From a virus, in the IMG/VR virus record IMGVR_UViG_3300037584_002726, positions 1 to 20,383 of that record: a stretch of 20,383 nt of DNA; one strand, given 5' to 3'. Each line of letters begins with the position of its first letter. Within the stretch, counting starts at the first letter, position 1. Both the position numbers and the translations under genes were made by a program. The notes beneath the pieces are model-generated. The model did no database searches and had not been told where the DNA came from. It saw only the letters and a list, made by a program, of their open reading frames with translations. Below, piece by piece: positions 2,061 through 17,074 of this stretch.

Positions 2061-4493
2061 CTATTCCCCCCAAAATTTTTCGTTTTCCTCTATATACCCA
2101 CGGGGGTCTGTGTATAAACCCTCTTCCGTTCCAGTGGAGTCGCTTTCAACAACAATCGGTTTTGTATAAACCTCCTCTTTGTATAAACCTCCATCCGATC
2201 CAGAGGTTTTTACAAAACTAGGGTTTTTACAAAAGTCATTGTTCTTCAAATCCGTTCCAATATCTACATTATTAGGTTTATACACATCATTTCGGGGTAT
2301 ATCACGCGTGAGGGACGTAAAAGACTTTGGTAATTCCTTACCTACTGCTTTATAAAATTTGGATGGTCTACCTCCTTTACTTTTTATTTTTGGAACGTCT
2401 ACTTCTTCAATTAATTTCTGATCTTCCAACTTATTAACGCTGTACACTATGGCCCGTTTCCTATGAGAACCACCTACTGTATCGTGTTCAACCAAATCTT
2501 TTACGCACCAAGCTTTAGGTTCTGCTCTCATCAAACGCAATATATCCAAAGTATGTTTGTTTGGAGTGTCCACAATAACTTCTTCTGTACGGTCTGGTGC
2601 AGGGCTTATAGAGTACGAGTAATCAGGTAATAGGGTAAATATCATACGAAGCCCTTCACGGTCCTCTCTGGACTTCTCAACGCTAACTAATCTGCTATTT
2701 GCTGTAAGACCCATCTCAGCAGCATCATTCATAGACAACTTACGCATATTCCATGTCTCATCTACTGCATTTTTAATCGCAGTAGTACCCCTAAACTTAC
2801 CTTCTTTGGTGTTGTGATGAATAATAACTATCGAACAAGCTGGAAAGTCCTGTCCATTACGTCTAACAAGTTTCTTGATAGGTAACGCATACTCTCTCCT
2901 GTTTTCCTCATAAGGGTTACTGTCATTACAGCCATCCAAACTATCAATAATTATCAGATCATACGCATACTTATTCTGCATCTTCTTAAATCTGCTATAC
3001 CACTGCATATCCCACTCAGTAATAACCCTGACATTTTTATCACAGCCAATCAATTTCATCTGTCTACGCAATATCCTCTCGTTCTGATCCCCATTCAACC
3101 AAAGAACCTTACCAGTTGGTACGTTTACTAATCCCCCATAAACATTAAAAGCTTTACCGTGTCCAATATGCTTGGCTATTGTCTGACACATAGCAGTCTT
3201 ACCAGTACCACCATCTGCATGAACCAACAAAGTCCACGGTTTAGGTAACAACCCAGGAATTAGATACTCAAAAGGTGTGTCATCCAACTCATCAGGAGTC
3301 AGAGGTTTCTGTCCCTTAGTCCTGTTAAACATTTCATGGGTATCAACCAACCTTTCAATTTCAGCAGCATTACCTCTCTTAGCCTCAATAGCTAATTTAT
3401 GGACCGCCTGATTATGCAACGCAGGGTTTTCATTCTTAGGGTCATTGTCAATCTCGATATATCGCTGTATAAGATCTTCACCATCCAGTATCTCTTCCTT
3501 ATAACGAAGTGGGATAGCCTCCACATCTTCAATTAATTTATCTAACCCAACCTGTTTAAATCTCTTTCTATCTGGATCGACCTTATCTGCCAACTCAATA
3601 AGGTGAGACATATTGTATCTCGCACCATCATTCCTCCATGTTGCATACCATCTAGCAGCACAAGGATCTAAACCATCTTCCCAACAATGTTCATAATCAG
3701 GATCTCTTCTACTCCATTCAGTCCATAACTCTAAACCTTCTATACCAGGTAACTCATTGTTTATCATTGCCCCTATCTCCCACCAGTAATGCTCATGGTT
3801 TGGGCCTTTATATCCAATAACACTCAAGCAACCACTAATAATCGCAACCCTCTCTTCTTTGGTACGCTTACTCCACCTGTTATCCACATATTTAATATCA
3901 ACATCCTGATTATTTTTCTTATACTGATCCTTCATACGAGACAGCAACCATTCTGGAGCGTCTGGTACAGCAAATAAATCACCTTCTAATTTATATTTAC
4001 CTTTACCAACACCATCTTTGTAATACTCACCAGCTATAACACCCTGTCCTCCCCACAAAACTTCCCAACCTTCCTGTCCAGCAGCAGTCTGACTTATAGA
4101 TGCAACCTCAGTCACAAGATCCTGCGGAACTCTAAATAAGAACTTTGCAGCATTTTTACGAAGCGAAGTAACCTTTGGAGCGTTCTTTAACTCCTTACCC
4201 CATTTCTTCTCAATAACACCTAAGTTTCTATCCACATCAAATATCACAAGACCATCTGACTTCTGACCTGTAAATACACCAATAGCTTTGAACTTATCAG
4301 GCTCTCTTTCAATCATCAGAGCCGAGTCATTTACTGTAAGTTCTTCTTTCCATGCTCTACCAAACGGTACTTTTCCATCAGAATATCTATCTGGACTTGC
4401 TTCGTTACGCTTTGGTAACAAAACTCCCTGTGCATATATTGGACAAGTCAACCAGCTTAACGGAATTTCTGGAACGAAACTTTTTCCACTCAT
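2061..4493 (-). CDS. Primase-helicase: prim-pol-like domain, PriCT-2-like linker, RecA-type ATPase
   Basis: An 810-aa protein expected to prime and unwind DNA at the phage fork. Residues about 10-185 look like an archaeo-eukaryotic (prim-pol) primase: GLVIFDVDRN carries the DxD metal motif (Asp86, Asp88), and WEVLWGGQGVIAG (about 143-155) matches the third motif region. Residues about 210-305 (YWWEIGAMI...LWTEWSRRDPDYEHCW) match the PriCT-2 pattern. The RecA-like ATPase has Walker A ADGGTGKT (426-433), Walker B DLIIID (512-517) and IIHHNTKEGKFRGT (557-570), like AAA_25/RepA-type helicases. The tail (about 645-715) looks like a winged helix. The His normally seen in prim-pol motif II is not evident in TSLRKNAAKFLFRVP, so primase activity is less certain than ATPase activity. 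ATG at 4493 has AGAGGT about 13 nt upstream. Confidence 0.9.
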   Translation of the reverse strand: MSGKSFVPEIPLSWLTCPIYAQGVLLPKRNEASPDRYSDGKVPFGRAWKEELTVNDSALMIEREPDKFKAIGVFTGQKSDGLVIFDVDRNLGVIEKKWGKELKNAPKVTSLRKNAAKFLFRVPQDLVTEVASISQTAAGQEGWEVLWGGQGVIAGEYYKDGVGKGKYKLEGDLFAVPDAPEWLLSRMKDQYKKNNQDVDIKYVDNRWSKRTKEERVAIISGCLSVIGYKGPNHEHYWWEIGAMINNELPGIEGLELWTEWSRRDPDYEHCWEDGLDPCAARWYATWRNDGARYNMSHLIELADKVDPDRKRFKQVGLDKLIEDVEAIPLRYKEEILDGEDLIQRYIEIDNDPKNENPALHNQAVHKLAIEAKRGNAAEIERLVDTHEMFNRTKGQKPLTPDELDDTPFEYLIPGLLPKPWTLLVHADGGTGKTAMCQTIAKHIGHGKAFNVYGGLVNVPTGKVLWLNGDQNERILRRQMKLIGCDKNVRVITEWDMQWYSRFKKMQNKYAYDLIIIDSLDGCNDSNPYEENRREYALPIKKLVRRNGQDFPACSIVIIHHNTKEGKFRGTTAIKNAVDETWNMRKLSMNDAAEMGLTANSRLVSVEKSREDREGLRMIFTLLPDYSYSISPAPDRTEEVIVDTPNKHTLDILRLMRAEPKAWCVKDLVEHDTVGGSHRKRAIVYSVNKLEDQKLIEEVDVPKIKSKGGRPSKFYKAVGKELPKSFTSLTRDIPRNDVYKPNNVDIGTDLKNNDFCKNPSFVKTSGSDGGLYKEEVYTKPIVVESDSTGTEEGLYTDPRGYIEENEKFWGE

Positions 4494-9480: not shown

Positions 9481-10560
9481 ATGAATTATTATCAACCTAA
9501 TTTAGTCAACACACTATATAGTGCAGATTCAAACAATCCTTTATTAATTGAAAATCATTATAAAGATAGGCATAATTTTAAATCTATAGGTAATGAGGAT
9601 ATATGCGGAAAATCTATAGATAAGAATGTTTCTATAAGAGACGCATTTATAAATACTGGAGCGTTAAATGCACCCGTTGAAGAAATCCCATTTATTAAAA
9701 ATTCTTTTGGTGATGAAATAGCACTTAAGGACCATAAAGCGATTGTTGATTCTGTAACTGGAAAATGTATGTCAGTTATGAAAAAATCTTATGAAGTGCA
9801 AGACAATGAGCCAATTTGTAGGATTTTCGAAGAAAATCAAAAAGACTTGCAATTAGAATATATTACCTTATTTAATGATAATGGTTGTATTTTTGTAAGT
9901 GGCGGTATTAAAGATGCTGACTTAGAAGTAACAAAAGATGATACAATCCGTAGGAGACTTTGTTTAATCAATAGTTATACAGGACAATATAGTTTTAAGC
10001 TTGTACTCATTGACTATAGGCTTTTTTGTTTTAACCAGCTTGGAAGAATTAACCGCTCAAAAAATAAATTAACTTTCAGACATTCAAAAGGGATTAATAA
10101 TTATACAAAACAGTTACCAGAGTTTATTAAATATCAACGTGAAGATCTAACAAATTCTATAGAGGAATTAAGAGCTATGGTACGTGTTTCTTATAAAACT
10201 AGAGAAGAATCTATGAGCGTTTTAAAAACACTCTCTAAACAAATGTTAGCGGATAAGTTAATCGGAAAGGTTAAGGATAAAGAAACTAAAGAATATAGGG
10301 CAAAAGATTTTGAAAAGGATCTGAATAAAGAATGGCAAGATATAAAAACTAATTTTTATAAAGAAACAAATAATTTTGAAATAGCTCCAAATTTATATCA
10401 AATGTTCAACGCATTAAACCATCAACAAACACATTGCGAACAATCTGTAAAAGATGATATTAAAGGAGCCAGAGTTAGACTTGAAAGTTTAGTTAGTGGA
10501 AAATGTGGCAATAGAGTTGATTTAATAAGAAAAGAATGTCTAAAATTAACTACTGTATAG
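9481..10560 (+). CDS. DUF932-family phage/plasmid protein
   Basis: A 359-aa protein of the DUF932 family, found in phages and plasmids and often placed among early or anti-defence genes; its biochemical role is not known to me. The diagnostic region is AIVDSVTGKCMSVMKKSYEVQDNEPICRIFEEN (about residues 86-118), matching the family pattern of a 'V.D..TG..L.VV...Y..VQN.E.F..' core. RRRLCLINSYTGQYSFKLVLIDYRLFCFNQLG (about 157-188) matches the later conserved block that ends in a Cys/Asn-rich motif. The C-terminal half is Lys-rich and helical. Base use is strongly AT-rich, unlike the terminase and exonuclease genes. It has its own promoter candidate and a terminator after it. Confidence 0.82.
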   Translation: MNYYQPNLVNTLYSADSNNPLLIENHYKDRHNFKSIGNEDICGKSIDKNVSIRDAFINTGALNAPVEEIPFIKNSFGDEIALKDHKAIVDSVTGKCMSVMKKSYEVQDNEPICRIFEENQKDLQLEYITLFNDNGCIFVSGGIKDADLEVTKDDTIRRRLCLINSYTGQYSFKLVLIDYRLFCFNQLGRINRSKNKLTFRHSKGINNYTKQLPEFIKYQREDLTNSIEELRAMVRVSYKTREESMSVLKTLSKQMLADKLIGKVKDKETKEYRAKDFEKDLNKEWQDIKTNFYKETNNFEIAPNLYQMFNALNHQQTHCEQSVKDDIKGARVRLESLVSGKCGNRVDLIRKECLKLTTV

Positions 10561-11563: not shown

Positions 11564-11767
11564 ATGACTAAATCAAACCAGGACCGCAAACGCTACCCAC
11601 TAGCAACAAGTAATAATCTTAATATGGTCCGTATTGCTACGGGTTTGTTCTTTTCAGTAACTTCTTTTCTTATTGCATCCCATCTGACAGACTCCCCACA
11701 ATTTCGAGAGTGTATGGAAGATCCCACAGTAAACAACAATTATTGTACTAAAAAGTTTCTAGGCTAG
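11564..11767 (+). CDS. Small membrane-anchored protein, 67 aa
   Basis: A 67-aa protein with a polar, basic N-terminus (MTKSNQDRKRYPLATSNN), one hydrophobic span (MVRIATGLFFSVTSFLIA, about 21-38) and a C-terminal tail with two Cys (REC...NYC) about a dozen residues apart, which could form a disulfide if exported. The frame is open to 11549, but the start at 11564 gives a more usual N-terminus. It ends the plus-strand block and is followed directly by a strong terminator. Its base composition is less AT-rich than the ArdA-like gene. Function is not recognised. Confidence 0.6.
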   Translation: MTKSNQDRKRYPLATSNNLNMVRIATGLFFSVTSFLIASHLTDSPQFRECMEDPTVNNNYCTKKFLG

Positions 11768-11780
11768 ATCCCACAACCCG

Positions 11781-11804
11781 CCCTGCTATCTCGCAGGGTT
11801 TTTT
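11781..11804 (+). terminator. Intrinsic terminator closing the AT-rich plus-strand block
   Basis: CCCTGC-TATCTC-GCAGGG, a perfect 6-bp stem with a 6-nt loop, then six T, 13 nt after the stop at 11767. Confidence 0.88.
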
Positions 11805-11820
11805 ATTACCTGATTACTAG

Positions 11821-11836
11821 TGTATCAAATGATACA
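11821..11836. repeat. Inverted repeat TGTATCA-AA-TGATACA
   Basis: A perfect 7-bp inverted repeat with a 2-nt centre and no T-run, so it is more like a dimeric regulator site than a terminator. It lies in the gap between the terminator at 11804 and the end of terS. Confidence 0.45.
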
Positions 11837-11909
11837 TAGGGGGCAGGGTCAAAAATTTTCCCGAACCACATAGGAATACAGGGAACTTACTGATAAATCA
11901 TAAATTAAA

Positions 11910-11950
11910 GACTAAAATACTACAATATAATAATACTACAATATTACAAT
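11910..11950. repeat. TACTACAATAT boxes and left copy of the terS-flanking repeat
   Basis: ATACTACAATAT occurs at 11917-11928 and 11933-11944, followed by ATTACAATAG. The first lies within GACTAAAATACTACA (11910-11924), a 15-bp sequence repeated exactly at 12410-12424 on the other side of terS. Confidence 0.6.
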
Positions 11951-11958
11951 AGTGTCAA

Positions 11959-12408
11959 CTACTTTTGCTTCGCTTCTACCTGAATCGATAGCTGTGGAGT
12001 GTTAAGATTGATTGTTTCCTCACTCTCTCCTAGTACTTTACCAAGTGAATCCAATATCTGAGCAGCCGTCTGCAACTGACCTTTACGCACAGCCTGTTCA
12101 AAAAGCCTCATCCTCATCCCCTGGAGTCGTGAAATCATCTTCTCTCTATCCTTCTCCCAATCCTCATCGTTCCATTGCTTAACTTTCTTCCAATCGGTCC
12201 ACGCTGTATCTATCCCGATCTGCTCCCTGGATGCGTGCTCATGTACCAACTGCCTCGTAGTCTTACCTGTTAATTGCTTCGAGTACAATCTTTGCCTTCT
12301 CGCCTCAATAACTGCATCGGGCTGCCTTCTTCCACACACCCTTCCATCTTGCCTGGCTCGTGCGGATGTGAATTGACCATCTGGATTACGAAGAATAGAA
12401 TCAGTCAC
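11959..12408 (-). CDS. terS: Putative terminase small subunit
   Basis: A 149-aa protein, probably the DNA-recognition subunit of the packaging motor. It has a basic N-terminal part with a likely helix-turn-helix (RQRLYSKQLTGKTTRQLVHEHASREQIGIDTAWTDWKKVKQW, about 38-79), then a long charged helical segment (DREKMISRLQGMRMRLFEQAVRKGQLQTAAQILDSLGKVLG) suited to oligomerisation, and a short beta tail (PQLSIQVEAKQK) like those that contact TerL or portal in other small terminases. The assignment rests on this architecture and its position beside terL. Unusually, it is divergent from terL and sits alone on the minus strand. It is more GC-rich than the block to its left. A 15-bp direct repeat brackets it. 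Confidence 0.7.
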   Translation of the reverse strand: MTDSILRNPDGQFTSARARQDGRVCGRRQPDAVIEARRQRLYSKQLTGKTTRQLVHEHASREQIGIDTAWTDWKKVKQWNDEDWEKDREKMISRLQGMRMRLFEQAVRKGQLQTAAQILDSLGKVLGESEETINLNTPQLSIQVEAKQK

Positions 12409-12409
12409 G

Positions 12410-12424
12410 GACTAAAATACTACA
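12410..12424. repeat. Right copy of the terS-flanking direct repeat
   Basis: GACTAAAATACTACA, identical to 11910-11924 and exactly 500 bp from it, in the same orientation. TATAAT follows at 12425-12430, as a close equivalent does at the left copy. Confidence 0.6.
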
Positions 12425-12478
12425 TATAATTGAATAATAACCCTAAAAACACCATTTAGTCGATAAAAAATCAAAATT

Positions 12479-12507
12479 TTGTCAAAATTAAAGCTATTCT
12501 GTAGTAC
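12479..12507 (+). promoter_or_regulatory. Weak promoter candidate abutting the terL start
   Basis: TTGTCA (12479-12484), a 17-nt spacer, TAGTAC (12502-12507), ending directly at the terL ATG. If used as drawn, it would start transcription inside the gene, so it may serve a downstream start or be chance. TerL has no Shine-Dalgarno. Confidence 0.2.
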
Positions 12508-13764
12508 ATGAGCGTAAACGCACCCGAAAAACTATCACTCCGTTGGGCACAGGGGGAGGTGTTCAACGCAAAAAACCGATTTAGAGTCTTGGTTGCTGGC
12601 AGAAGATTCGGAAAATCCTATTTATCCTGCATCGAACTCCTCAAAGCTGCAATAGACCGCCCTGGTGAAACCTACTTCTACTGTGCCCCAACCTATCGCA
12701 TGGCAAAAGACATCGCCTGGAAAGAAATCAAAAAACTCATCCCACCCCAATGGATTCACGCAAAAAACGAAACCGACCTAAAAATCGAGTTAATTAATGG
12801 ATCGCTAATCGAACTCAAGGGAACGGAAAACGCAACCACCCTGCGTGGCCGAAGCCTCGCTGGAGTAGTACTTGACGAAGCAGCCTTCATGGATTCCGAT
12901 GTCTGGTTTCAAGTAATCAGACCAGCCCTCGCAGACAAACAAGGCTGGGCACTCTTCATATCCACACCAGACGGCACAGCTTCATGGTTCTACGATTTAT
13001 GGTGTTACGTTCCAGAGGATGAAAGCGGAGATTGGAAACGCTGGAGCTTCACCACCATAGACGGGGGTAACGTACCAGCCGAAGAAGTTGAAGCAGCAAA
13101 ATCCCAACTCGACACCAGAACATTCAAGCAGGAGTTCGAGGCAAGTTTCGAGAATCTCACAGGTCTTGTTGCAGTCTCATTTTCAGATTCCAACATTTCT
13201 ACCGAAGCCGAGGATATAAACATCGCCCCACTCCTCCTGGGAGTCGATTTTAACGTAGACCCACTCTGCGGAATCTGTGCTGTCCGCCACCGTGACATCC
13301 TCTACGTCTTTGATGAAATAATAATGACGGGCGGAGCAACAACTTGGGATTTCGCAGAAGAAATTACAAACAGATATGGTGTGGAACGCAGAGTAATAGC
13401 TTGCCCAGACCCCACGGGTGCTGCCCGAAAAACATCAGGAGTCGGATCAACAGACCACAGCATCCTACGCAGAAGCGGATTTACTGTGTCATCTCCCAGA
13501 TCCCCCTGGAAAATCCGCGACAAAGTAACAGCAGTAAATACTGCACTATATGATGCAATGGGCGAACGCAGAACTTTGATTCATCCCCGATGCAAAGAAT
13601 TAATAAAATCCCTACGCACCCTGACATACGCACCGAATACAGGTATGCCTAACAAAAACCTCGGAGTAGACCACGCTTTCGATGCTTTCGGCTACCTCTG
13701 CCTACAACAATTCAACCTTGCAAAACCAGAGACACTGGGCCAAACTTCGTTTAGAATATACTAA
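12508..13764 (+). CDS. terL: Terminase large subunit
   Basis: The 418-aa ATPase-nuclease that drives DNA into the prohead and cuts the concatemer. The ATPase domain shows Walker A VAGRRFGKSY (29-38), Walker B GVVLDEAAF (119-127, catalytic Glu124) and the coupling motif FISTPDG (150-156). The RNase H-like nuclease domain shows LGVDFNVDP (244-252, Asp247), FDE (268-270) and the C-terminal GVDHAFDAFGYL with its acidic pair. The length is typical of the family. Codon use is GC-richer than in the accessory block to the left and the structural genes to the right. There is no ribosome binding site at ATG 12508, but the N-terminal sequence fits the family. The gene diverges from terS across a 99-nt AT-rich gap. 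Confidence 0.95.
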   Translation: MSVNAPEKLSLRWAQGEVFNAKNRFRVLVAGRRFGKSYLSCIELLKAAIDRPGETYFYCAPTYRMAKDIAWKEIKKLIPPQWIHAKNETDLKIELINGSLIELKGTENATTLRGRSLAGVVLDEAAFMDSDVWFQVIRPALADKQGWALFISTPDGTASWFYDLWCYVPEDESGDWKRWSFTTIDGGNVPAEEVEAAKSQLDTRTFKQEFEASFENLTGLVAVSFSDSNISTEAEDINIAPLLLGVDFNVDPLCGICAVRHRDILYVFDEIIMTGGATTWDFAEEITNRYGVERRVIACPDPTGAARKTSGVGSTDHSILRRSGFTVSSPRSPWKIRDKVTAVNTALYDAMGERRTLIHPRCKELIKSLRTLTYAPNTGMPNKNLGVDHAFDAFGYLCLQQFNLAKPETLGQTSFRIY

Positions 13765-13780
13765 GATACCCTTTTTGCTT

Positions 13781-13864
13781 ATGGCCTACGGAATGTCCAC
13801 AACCAAGAAAAAGAAAAAGAAGAAAAAAGGAGGTAAAAAACGTGGCGAATGTACCTGTAAATAA
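13781..13864 (+). CDS. Tiny poly-lysine peptide, 27 aa
   Basis: Twenty-seven residues: MAYGMSTT, eight consecutive Lys, then GGKKRGECTCK. It starts 16 nt after terL. Half its residues are basic. It overlaps the next gene by 23 nt, and its Gly-Gly codons (GGAGGT) form that gene's Shine-Dalgarno. It could be a real basic peptide like its neighbours or mainly a translated leader; I favour a real but low-certainty gene. Confidence 0.35.
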   Translation: MAYGMSTTKKKKKKKKGGKKRGECTCK

Positions 13865-14009
13865 AGCGTTATATTCTAGGGTAAAGTCAGAAGCTAAACG
13901 TAAATTTAAAGTTTACCCTTCTGCTTACGCTAATGCTTGGCTGGTACGAGAGTACAAAAAGCGTGGCGGTACATATCGTACAGAGGCAAAGAAACGTGGC
14001 AAGAAGTAG
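13842..14009 (+). CDS. Small basic conserved phage protein, 55 aa, GTG start
   Basis: Fifty-five residues with 17 Lys/Arg and 3 acidic residues: MANVPVNKALYSRVKSEAKR followed by KFKVYPSAYANAWLVREYKKRGGTYR. I recognise the segment KF.VYPSAYAN.W.V.EYK.RGG.Y as a widespread small conserved element in phages and large DNA viruses, of unknown function. The GTG start at 13842 is strongly supported by AGGAGGT 7 nt upstream. The gene's 3' end overlaps the next gene by 14 nt. Its position between terminase and portal and its high charge suggest a virion or DNA-binding role; this is inference. Confidence 0.8.
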   Translation: MANVPVNKALYSRVKSEAKRKFKVYPSAYANAWLVREYKKRGGTYRTEAKKRGKK

Positions 14010-14250
14010 TGGTGGTCTAACCCGTTGGTTCAAGGAAAAATGGGTAGATGTCAAAACTGGCAAACCTTGTGGACGCTCCAAAGGCGAAAAACGAGGCTAC
14101 CCTGCCTGTAGACCGAGTAAACGTGTCTCAAGTAAGACACCTAAGACTGCCTCAGAAATGTCAAGTAGTGAAAAAGCACGTTTTAAACGCGAAAAAACAG
14201 GTAGCAAGAAGATAACATATCAACATAGACGAAAAAAGAAGAAAAAATAA
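13996..14250 (+). CDS. Small basic conserved protein with WVDVKTGKPCGR...YPACRP motif, 84 aa
   Basis: An 84-aa, very basic protein: MARSSGGLTRWFKEKWVDV, then KTGKPCGR, then GYPACRP, and a tail ending in Lys-rich HRRKKKKK. The G-L-x-R-W-F-x-E-x-W-V-D-V ... C-G-R ... Y-P-x-C-R-P layout is one I recognise from small proteins of phages and giant viruses, of unknown function. The two Cys may bind metal or form a disulfide. The start is GTG at 13996, with GAGG about 10 nt upstream; the longer frame from 13933 is the shadow of the previous gene. It overlaps that gene by 14 nt. Confidence 0.78.
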   Translation: MARSSGGLTRWFKEKWVDVKTGKPCGRSKGEKRGYPACRPSKRVSSKTPKTASEMSSSEKARFKREKTGSKKITYQHRRKKKKK

Positions 14251-14284
14251 GTGAAAATCACATATTTAACGGTAAAATAGTGTT

Positions 14285-14434
14285 ATGAAACTAACTACTC
14301 GTCAAAAAAATAAGCTCAAAGAACATTCAGAGCACCATAGTCCTGCACACATGGAATTTATGAAAAGACGTATGAGAGCAGGAGACACCTTTACTCAAGC
14401 TCATAAAAAAGCACAAGCGAAGGTAGGAAAGTAA
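14285..14434 (+). CDS. Small His/Lys-rich conserved phage protein, 49 aa
   Basis: Forty-nine residues: MKLTTRQKNKLKEHSEHHSP followed by AHMEFMKRRMRAGDTFTQAHKKAQAKVGK. The pattern LT.RQK..L..HS.HHS..HM..M...M..G..F..AH..A...VGK is typical of a small conserved protein near phage packaging genes; its role is unknown. The stop overlaps the next start as TAATG. It is predicted to be two helices with a His-rich turn. Confidence 0.75.
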   Translation: MKLTTRQKNKLKEHSEHHSPAHMEFMKRRMRAGDTFTQAHKKAQAKVGK

Positions 14435-14703
14435 TGCCACGCAAAAAAGGAGTCAGTTTATCAGTTGGGAGAGGGGAAAAGTCCAAGAAAGGAGGACTGA
14501 CTGCTAAAGGACGAGCAAAATATAACAGAGCTACAGGGAGTAATTTACAAGCACCAGTAACAGGAAAGGTCAAGCCTGGCAGTAAGGCAGCTAAAAGACG
14601 AGCATCTTTTTGTGCAAGAATGAAAGGAGTTAAAGGTCCAATGAAAGATAGTAAAGGCAGACCCACTAGAAAAGCATTAGCATTAAAAAGATGGAGGTGT
14701 TGA
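14434..14703 (+). CDS. Small basic protein, DUF6321-like, 89 aa
   Basis: Eighty-nine residues with the conserved run KKGGLTAKGRAKYNRATGSN, then GSKAAKRRASFCARMKGVKGP, then GRPTRKALALKRWRC. I associate this with the DUF6321 family of small basic phage and cellular proteins, of unknown function. Lys, Arg and Gly dominate and the predicted charge is strongly positive. Translation starts by TAATG overlap with the previous gene. Its last codons (TGGAGG) provide the portal gene's ribosome binding site. It is the last of five tiny basic genes between terL and portal. Confidence 0.82.
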   Translation: MPRKKGVSLSVGRGEKSKKGGLTAKGRAKYNRATGSNLQAPVTGKVKPGSKAAKRRASFCARMKGVKGPMKDSKGRPTRKALALKRWRC

Positions 14704-14704
14704 C

Positions 14705-16147
14705 ATGACTTATGCTGTTCCTGGTCCAATTAGAACCAACATAGTTTCTTCTACTTCAGCAGGAGGAGATGATAGTCCTTTTACTCGTACCAGAGCAGTG
14801 CTGGACATGATGAAAGGATGGGAAATAATGAAAGCTGTTACTGAAGGTACAGATTACCTCAGACAAAATAGTGAAGCATTTTTACCCTTAGAGCCAAGAG
14901 AAGATTTAGATGCTTACCTCGCAAGAGTAAATAGAGCAGTATTTAGTCCTTTTACACAAAGATTGATAAGAGCAGCTACAGGATTAGTGCTTCGTAAACC
15001 AATAACATTAACAGGCGATCCATACTGGACTGAAATGTTCAAAATGGATGTTGACGGCTGTAAGTCAGATTTAGATGAATATGCAAGAAGAATATTAATG
15101 TGTTCATTAACTTACGGTCAAAGTCATATTCTTGTAGATTATCCTGCACCATCTGGAGCAAGAAGTTTAGCGGAAGAAAGAGCACAAGATCGTAGACCAT
15201 ATTGGATAGAAGTTGATCCAACAAATCTCTATGGTTGGCGATTAGATCGTGAATCTAATTATGGTAATTTAATTCAGGCAAGAATCGCGGAAAAAGCAGT
15301 ATTACCAAGTGGTCAGTTTGGTGAAAAGGTATTCGATCAGATTAGAGTAATTGAACCAGGAAGATACAGAGTATTTCGTAAAAAAGAACAACTAGAGGAA
15401 ATGTATGATGTTTCTGATAACAGTTCTGTAGGTGAATTTGAAGTGGCTACTACTGATAAAGACTATAGACAAGTTGAATCTGGTAGTTTTTCTCTTGGTG
15501 AAATACCTTTAGTTACTATTTATTCTGGAAAAACAGATAATTTAGTAAGCAAACCACCTTTATTAGACATTGCATATTTAAATCTTGCACATTTTCAAAG
15601 ACAAGCTGATTTAATTCATAGTTTGCACGTTGCATCTCAACCCATGTTAGTAATGGAAGGATATGATGATCAAACTAAAGATCTTGCTATTTCTGTTAAT
15701 TATGCAATGGCAACTCAACCTGGTAACAAAGTTTATTATGTAGAACCAGCTAGTAGTGCTTTTGATGCTCAATCAGCAGAAATAAAAGAGTTACAAATGC
15801 AAATGGCTACTTTAGGTATCAGTACATTATCACAACAGAAATTCGTAGCCGAATCAGCAGATGCTAGAAGACTGGACCGAGTAGATACCAATTCTATGTT
15901 GGCGATGGTTTCTATGGAATTAGAACAAAAACTTCAAAAGGCTTTCAACCTCTCGGCTGAGTATGTTGGAATCGAACCACCAGAAGTAAAAATTAGTAGA
16001 GACTTTGATATTGAAAGATTAATTGGGCAGGATATTACAGCTTTAACTTCCTTATTTGATCAACAAGTCATTGATAGAGAAGAATTTAGAGATATTTTGG
16101 TACAAGGTGAAGTGTTACCTAATGCTAATGAGGCCAAACCTGAATAA
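14705..16147 (+). CDS. Portal protein (DUF4055-like)
   Basis: A 480-aa protein that should form the dodecameric portal ring at the capsid vertex through which DNA passes. It matches the DUF4055 type of phage portal: MKGWEIMKAVTEGTDYLRQNSEAFLP near the start, FSPFTQRLIRAATGLVLRKPI (about 80-100), the alpha/beta core with YGQSHILVDYPAP, IPLVTIYSGKTDN (about 265-277), and a helical C-terminal part with TLGISTLSQQKF and DARRLDRVDTNSML. Its position downstream of terL and upstream of scaffold and capsid agrees. ATG 14705 has GGAGGT 7 nt upstream. The stop at 16147 is followed, in the same frame and after only 11 sense codons, by the next gene. Confidence 0.88.
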   Translation: MTYAVPGPIRTNIVSSTSAGGDDSPFTRTRAVLDMMKGWEIMKAVTEGTDYLRQNSEAFLPLEPREDLDAYLARVNRAVFSPFTQRLIRAATGLVLRKPITLTGDPYWTEMFKMDVDGCKSDLDEYARRILMCSLTYGQSHILVDYPAPSGARSLAEERAQDRRPYWIEVDPTNLYGWRLDRESNYGNLIQARIAEKAVLPSGQFGEKVFDQIRVIEPGRYRVFRKKEQLEEMYDVSDNSSVGEFEVATTDKDYRQVESGSFSLGEIPLVTIYSGKTDNLVSKPPLLDIAYLNLAHFQRQADLIHSLHVASQPMLVMEGYDDQTKDLAISVNYAMATQPGNKVYYVEPASSAFDAQSAEIKELQMQMATLGISTLSQQKFVAESADARRLDRVDTNSMLAMVSMELEQKLQKAFNLSAEYVGIEPPEVKISRDFDIERLIGQDITALTSLFDQQVIDREEFRDILVQGEVLPNANEAKPE

Positions 16148-16351: not shown

Positions 16352-17074
16352 ATGGCAATCGAAGAAAAAGTAATTCAGCCTGAGTCTGTGACCAACGCTG
16401 AACAGCCCGTGGCTGAAACTCCTTCACAACCACAAGCACCAAATCTTGATTCTGTAAAAGCAGAATATGAGGCACAAATAGCTGCTGTTCGTAAAGAAGC
16501 GGCTGAAGCACAAGAGAAATTTCAAGGCATCAAAGGTAAATTAGATGATGTCTATAAACAAAGAGAAGAAAAAAGAACTAAAGAATTAGAGGATCAAGGT
16601 CAATGGAAAACTCTTTGGGAAGAAGCAAATAAAACTGCCCAGGAAAAGGAACAAAAAATAATGACCTTATCACAACAGTTAGAAGAAATGAAAACTTCTA
16701 ATGAGGTTGCCTCTACTAAAACAACAGCACTTGCAGCTATCAGTAATCTTGGGGCTATAAATGCAGAACAAACTTTGTCATTGTTACAAGGAAAGTTACA
16801 AAAGAACGCTGACGGTAAAGTCGTTGTTCTTAATGGTGGAGTAGAACAGGATCTTAATGCTTATCTCAGTAGTCTCAAAAATCCTGGTAGTGGTTGGGAA
16901 CATCATTTTAAACCAAGTTCTGCTGCTGGTATGGGTGCAAAACCAAGCCCAACAGCTAATACTGGTACTGGTCAGGCTAATCCTTGGAAAACGGGCAATC
17001 TCACTCAACAAATGATACTATTAGAGCAAGACCCACAGCTTGCAGCCGTGCTCAAGCAAGAGGCACAAAAATAG
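16352..17074 (+). CDS. Putative capsid scaffold protein
   Basis: A 240-aa protein with the usual scaffold make-up: a disordered Gln/Pro N-terminus (about 1-35), a long charged coiled coil (YEAQIAAVRKEAAEAQEKF... to SQQLEEMKTSNE, about 40-118) and a Gly/Ser/Pro-rich linker. The last segment (TGNLTQQMILLEQDPQLAAVLKQEAQK) is a helix of the kind that binds the capsid protein. It lies directly before the major capsid gene, the standard place. No protease motif is seen. Confidence 0.82.
   Translation: MAIEEKVIQPESVTNAEQPVAETPSQPQAPNLDSVKAEYEAQIAAVRKEAAEAQEKFQGIKGKLDDVYKQREEKRTKELEDQGQWKTLWEEANKTAQEKEQKIMTLSQQLEEMKTSNEVASTKTTALAAISNLGAINAEQTLSLLQGKLQKNADGKVVVLNGGVEQDLNAYLSSLKNPGSGWEHHFKPSSAAGMGAKPSPTANTGTGQANPWKTGNLTQQMILLEQDPQLAAVLKQEAQK

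Follow-up and report, generated by a model that had tools for sequence, protein, structure and literature searches.

Small basic proteins encoded between the terminase and portal genes of a marine phage, split forms of a modular protein and candidate constituents of the phage-head interior

The internal protein (IP) family of phage T4 carries an N-terminal capsid-targeting sequence that is removed by the prohead protease. IPI, IPII and IPIII are small, belong to the prohead core and are retained in the mature head (PMC9026906). In T4-like cyanophages, the protein T4-GC119 (P-SSM2 gp114, S-SCSM1 QFG06285, S-CREM2 gp137) is encoded beside the terminase genes, and Pfam assigns its C-terminal domain to DUF6321. 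In the literature searched, DUF6321 is named by no paper and DUF5872, the second family that concerns us here, by a single one, on an algal giant virus.

Here, we analyze five small ORFs lying between terL and the portal gene in a 20,383-nt stretch of viral DNA (IMG/VR record IMGVR_UViG_3300037584_002726, positions 1 to 20,383, hereafter the window), relate three of them to modules of T4-GC119, and weigh what these proteins may do in the phage head.

Table 1. ORF1–ORF5 and the two genes that flank them, in window coordinates.
Feature	Position	Strand	Details
terL, terminase large subunit (context)	12508..13764	+	phrog_2 E 2.3e-46, Pfam Terminase_6N
ORF1, lysine-rich micro-ORF, C-terminal CTCK	13781..13864	+	27 aa, ATG, pI 10.3; least certain
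ORF2, 'VYPSAYAN' module = DUF5872 N-terminal half, Cys-less class	13842..14009	+	55 aa, GTG, pI 10.6
ORF3, 'WVDVKTGKPCGR...YPACRP' module = DUF5872 C-terminal half, two conserved Cys	13996..14250	+	84 aa, GTG, pI 11.0
ORF4, rich in histidine and lysine	14285..14434	+	49 aa, ATG, pI 10.8; phrog_31838
ORF5, DUF6321, predicted three-helix domain, conserved Cys at end	14434..14703	+	89 aa, ATG, pI 12.0
Portal protein (context)	14705..16147	+	phrog_145 E 1e-102

An earlier note on this DNA had described five small, strongly basic genes at this place, and their coordinates, lengths and basicity are correct (pI 10.3–12.0, net charge +9 to +26), as are the flanks it named, which profile matches identify as terL (phrog_2) and portal (phrog_145); GTG starts number two rather than three, those of ORF2 and ORF3. 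Overlaps of 23 nt (ORF1/ORF2), 14 nt (ORF2/ORF3) and 1 nt (ORF4/ORF5) join the ORFs, and the portal ATG at 14705 follows one base after ORF5. A near-perfect Shine-Dalgarno sequence (AAGGAGGT) stands upstream of ORF2 only; one was looked for at ORF1 and none is visible. The neighboring gene products (TerL, portal, a 240-aa putative scaffold at 16352–17074 and the major capsid protein, MCP) are all acidic, and among the 143 window frames of at least 45 aa the highest net charges per residue belong to ORF5, ORF3 and ORF2, with ORF4 less extreme at about rank 9. Elsewhere the window encodes a DUF932 protein (9481–10560, plus strand) and a large AAA_25 ATPase (2061–4493, minus strand) that weakly matches a primase C-terminal domain. 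Setting aside a virus fragment from a single cell, the sequenced isolate with the closest portal is cyanophage S-2L, at 36.5% identity; PurZ, MazZ and DatZ are encoded in its record.

ORF2 to ORF5 are real, conserved coding genes, with median dN/dS values against relatives of 0.056, 0.094, 0.070 and 0.149, respectively. The order terL-ORF2-ORF3-ORF4-ORF5-portal, whose conservation the earlier note had proposed to check, is kept without exception in the 102 related contigs with all six genes, which fall into 83 groups at 95% DNA identity; this count describes conservation of order and not natural frequency since the contigs were retrieved by similarity to the ORFs. In 72 loci of this set a major tail protein gene lies between ORF3 and ORF4, as at L461:3954-4370 (phrog_10528, E 2.8e-24); the window has none there, and its short ORF3–ORF4 gap is found in 6 of the 102. 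Many relatives carry extra tiny lysine-rich ORFs at the cluster, such as L461:4370-4492 (~40 aa) and L016:1857-1955 (~33 aa), for which family matches were not found. The weakest case among the five is ORF1, which matched no family in Pfam or PHROGs. Of 160 distinct upstream regions, 128 carry a similar lysine-run micro-ORF, mostly ending in CxC, and as the lysine run of ORF1 contains the Shine-Dalgarno sequence of ORF2, some of this conservation could serve ORF2 translation.

Profile searches placed four of the ORFs in families. ORF5 matches DUF6321 (PF19846) over profile positions 2–72 of 72 at 98.4 bits (cut-off 28.5), and ORF4 matches phrog_31838 (E 3.9e-14). ORF2 and ORF3 match consecutive parts of one family, DUF5872 (PF19197), at positions 1–48 (40.8 bits) and 52–114 (56.8 bits), each against a cut-off of 27.5. 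While the DUF5872 profile implies one polypeptide, the window holds its halves in two overlapping ORFs in different frames, and the halves are separate in most relatives. The motifs of these proteins had been read as having no known role; this is right as to role, but three of the proteins already belong to Pfam families and ORF4 to a PHROG family. The earlier reading had missed that DUF5872 is divided between ORF2 and ORF3 and that, together with ORF5, these two appear as modules of one protein elsewhere.

That protein is T4-GC119. Its members in P-SSM2, S-B43 and S-SCSM1 contain an ORF3-like stretch followed by an ORF2-like stretch, ahead of the C-terminal domain homologous to ORF5. Pfam DUF5872 misses most T4-GC119 proteins, so the link of ORF2 and ORF3 to T4-GC119 rests on profile comparison. 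With models built solely from microgene relatives, the ORF2 family matched its T4-GC119 stretch with a probability of 99.4 (E 3e-21) and the ORF3 family with 97.3 (E 2e-11), and the negative controls, crossed ORF2/ORF3 pairs and ORF4, gave no match. As the stretches had been chosen by motif, what the comparison tests is agreement of the profile around the motifs. Matches of our broadened models (O2b, O3b), which include T4-GC119 sequences, would be circular here and are excluded as evidence. Profile-to-sequence comparison detected the ORF2-like module strongly in L363 (E 1.3e-19), where it shares one ORF with DUF6321, and the ORF3 module modestly, at best at E 1.6e-4. DUF5872 and DUF6321 also occur in one ORF, both over their curated cut-offs, in L288 and in a 601-aa protein (L277/L278/L381). 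On these comparisons, the split and fused forms are homologous, and the relatives of ORF3, ORF2 and ORF5 appear to be domains of one protein in T4-like cyanophages. Like the window, T4-GC119 has ORF3-, ORF2- and ORF5-like modules encoded beside terminase; unlike the separate genes of the window, it is one chain of about 230–650 aa with extra domains, and its ORF2-like module keeps two cysteines that the window ORF2 is without. Two proteins of this type carry DUF192 or DUF5661, one each (L303:770-2455 and L348:4770-6506, respectively). No fused relative of ORF4 was found and it has no match within T4-GC119, and we dropped it as a part of that protein.

The gene group is widespread among marine phages. 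At least 522 records of sequenced phages contain DUF6321, most of them from phages of Synechococcus, Prochlorococcus and SAR11. The Prochlorococcus podovirus P-SCSP2 (11658–12636) encodes stand-alone relatives of ORF2, ORF4, ORF3 and ORF5, likewise separate genes in one cluster among head genes, but its cluster lies between scaffold and MCP rather than between terL and portal, and its order is ORF2-x-ORF4-ORF3-ORF5 rather than ORF2-ORF3-ORF4-ORF5. DUF6321 directly follows MCP in P-SCSP1a, genes of the family come after portal in L479 and L482, and in P-HM1 and S-CREM2 the gene stands between the terminase subunits. In two different phages, a gene for a GroES-like co-chaperonin stands close to DUF6321 (L479:6612-7046; DSL-LC05, OR003940, 29730–29978). 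The window arrangement recurs in a Prochlorococcus single-cell contig (L461) and in a contig from a bin assigned to SAR202 (L460). Prochlorococcus is a plausible host, but phage DNA of other origin can end up in single-cell contigs and bins. ORF5 alone retrieved 26 genome contigs of bacteria or archaea, and a scan of these with the broadened ORF2 and ORF3 models showed that 13 also held ORF2- and ORF3-like ORFs.

Structure prediction with AlphaFold2 suggests that ORF5 folds confidently into a three-helix domain (pLDDT 85.5, pTM 0.65), while the ORF3 prediction was too poor for use (pLDDT 66, pTM 0.36). The predicted ORF5 fold has no match in the PDB, and a PDB sequence search with ORF3 and ORF5 returned none either. 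Against BFVD, the good matches to the ORF5 fold were mostly proteins named DUF6321, and the S-SCSM1 virion protein was among the matches (E 2.5e-3). The three module families also share a pattern of paired cysteines. Where both positions are aligned, ORF2 relatives have both cysteines (47) or neither (129, the class of the window ORF2), with no mixed case; both are present in 260 of 264 distinct ORF3 relatives; and 249 distinct DUF6321 members have both, with 51 lacking the first where the second column is unaligned, all of these being counts that ignore kinship and do not represent independent events. As the pairs are kept or lost as a unit, they probably form a disulfide or a metal site within each module.

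Evidence on location comes from relatives. The DUF6321 protein of S-SCSM1 is placed in the virion by its GenBank label, 'virion protein'; in the published study of this phage, mass spectrometry of particles purified on CsCl identified 45 virion proteins (PMC9602691). ORF137 of S-CREM2 (108049–109521), in which DUF6321 scores 40.8 bits, is listed in the virion table of that phage on 4 unique peptides, at a coverage of 4.1%, and the authors allow co-purification for some detected proteins (PMC10665884). The adjoining gene product, gp136 (L486:2302-3015), is lysine-rich and also virion-listed, with 8 unique peptides (PMC10665884). For stand-alone members, no virion data were found in the literature searched, and no relatives were found in Syn5 (all), PSS2 (first half) or P-SSP7 (nearly all), so the virion data of these phages could not be used.

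Fusions to proteases connect the modules with the prohead. L386 and L390 each encode a Peptidase_S78 domain (43.5 and 44.3 bits, respectively, against a cut-off of 21) with DUF6321 immediately after it, and in L386 this gene comes after a portal-like gene. The 601-aa protein begins with a head maturation protease (phrog_9427, E 5e-49; Pfam S78 slightly under its cut-off, 20.8 vs 21) followed by DUF6321 and both DUF5872 halves. Prohead proteases act within the prohead, and a domain fused to one would therefore enter it. These fusions share DUF6321 with the window, and L277/L278 add both DUF5872 halves, but in them DUF6321 is internal and without both conserved cysteines, whereas the window ORF5 is a separate protein. 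A weak match of L404 to Gp23 (major capsid) was set aside, as it fell under the cut-off and the ORF is not capsid-like.

As the modules are pieces of one virion-carried protein that is sometimes attached to a protease, we favor, at somewhat better than an even chance, the reading that ORF2, ORF3 and ORF5 encode small basic proteins of the phage-head interior, partnered by the product of ORF4 and perhaps that of ORF1. The genes sit in the packaging and head gene cluster. Their products would be recruited into the prohead alongside scaffold, protease and portal, as the fusions suggest, and may remain in the mature particle; there, the positive charge could lie against packaged DNA or acidic inner proteins and the cysteine pairs, where present, would stabilize the modules. 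ORF2, ORF3 and ORF5 would then be the unlinked form of a modular protein that is one chain in T4-GC119 and protease-attached in other phages. The likeness to T4 IPI, IPII and IPIII is a proposed analogy, with sequence relation looked at via Pfam and PHROGs, and the T4 proteins are poorly conserved whereas the window modules are strongly conserved. The earlier note had offered two pictures of these genes. That of internal virion proteins, its added idea of ejection with the DNA apart, gains support from the DUF6321 relatives reported in two virion studies and from the modules fused to prohead protease, which make the window's own proteins candidates for this role. That of chromatin-like DNA condensers is a putative role based on charge; none of the five ORFs has a Pfam match to an HU, HMG, histone, protamine-like or other DNA-binding family, and we dropped a histone- or HU-like identity on that ground.

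Other roles can be set against the same observations. Basic DNA-binding proteins that aid terminase loading or cutting, present in the infected cell and not in the particle, would explain the strong positive charge as well as the position, which is beside terL in the window and flanked by the terminase subunits in P-HM1 and S-CREM2; we nevertheless think such packaging accessories unlikely, given the DUF6321 proteins reported in virions, the fusion with prohead protease and the P-SCSP2 genes, which lie far from terL. Alternatively, the head might be mere transport for proteins that take over a newly infected cell, as T4 internal proteins do (PMC9026906). Small size and modularity would fit such ejected proteins, but their strong conservation over unrelated hosts (Prochlorococcus, Synechococcus, SAR11, Rhodobacteraceae) is unlike that of host-specific effectors and leaves this role rather improbable. 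A similarly low probability attaches to small structural proteins that fasten the head shell, portal or neck through their cysteine pairs. The conserved pairs, the nearby portal and MCP genes and the major tail protein gene within the cluster of most relatives are what one would expect of fasteners, yet extreme positive charge is unusual among shell proteins and P-SCSP1u, which encodes DUF6321, has a shell that by cryo-EM consists of the major capsid protein alone, with no decoration protein (PMC10575957). The same structure, which cannot show interior presence, disfavors an icosahedral decoration protein.

A different question is whether ORF2 and ORF3 are one gene, expressed by programmed frameshifting as a single DUF5872 protein. 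Their match to consecutive halves of the family, the short overlap and 13 loci with both halves in one ORF speak for it. Their frame relation varies, with offset 1 in 157 relatives and offset 2 in 33; their spacing ranges from overlap to hundreds of bases; two other genes separate the halves in P-SCSP2; and T4-GC119 has them in reverse order. In view of the changing frame offset and spacing and of the reversed order, we reject programmed frameshifting as highly improbable.

Beyond the head-interior reading itself, a broader and more tentative idea, possible but less likely than not, is that DUF6321 is a head-interior docking domain common to unrelated tailed phages, a natural tag for cargo loading. 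Of 310 distinct members, 222 have the domain at the extreme C terminus, running up to the stop codon. Its cargo, fused or supplied as separate microproteins, would be the DUF5872 modules, DUF192, DUF5661, the protease and possibly AAA and ferritin/Dps-like proteins. The last two come from the BFVD search, in which DUF6321-like structures were also seen in proteins named AAA and ferritin/Dps, and this could instead mean a more general role.

Linking DUF6321 and DUF5872 to the prohead and virion gives both families a testable role. The contrast between split and fused forms, from microgenes through the T4-GC119 chain to the protease fusions, makes protein loading into the heads of marine phages directly testable.
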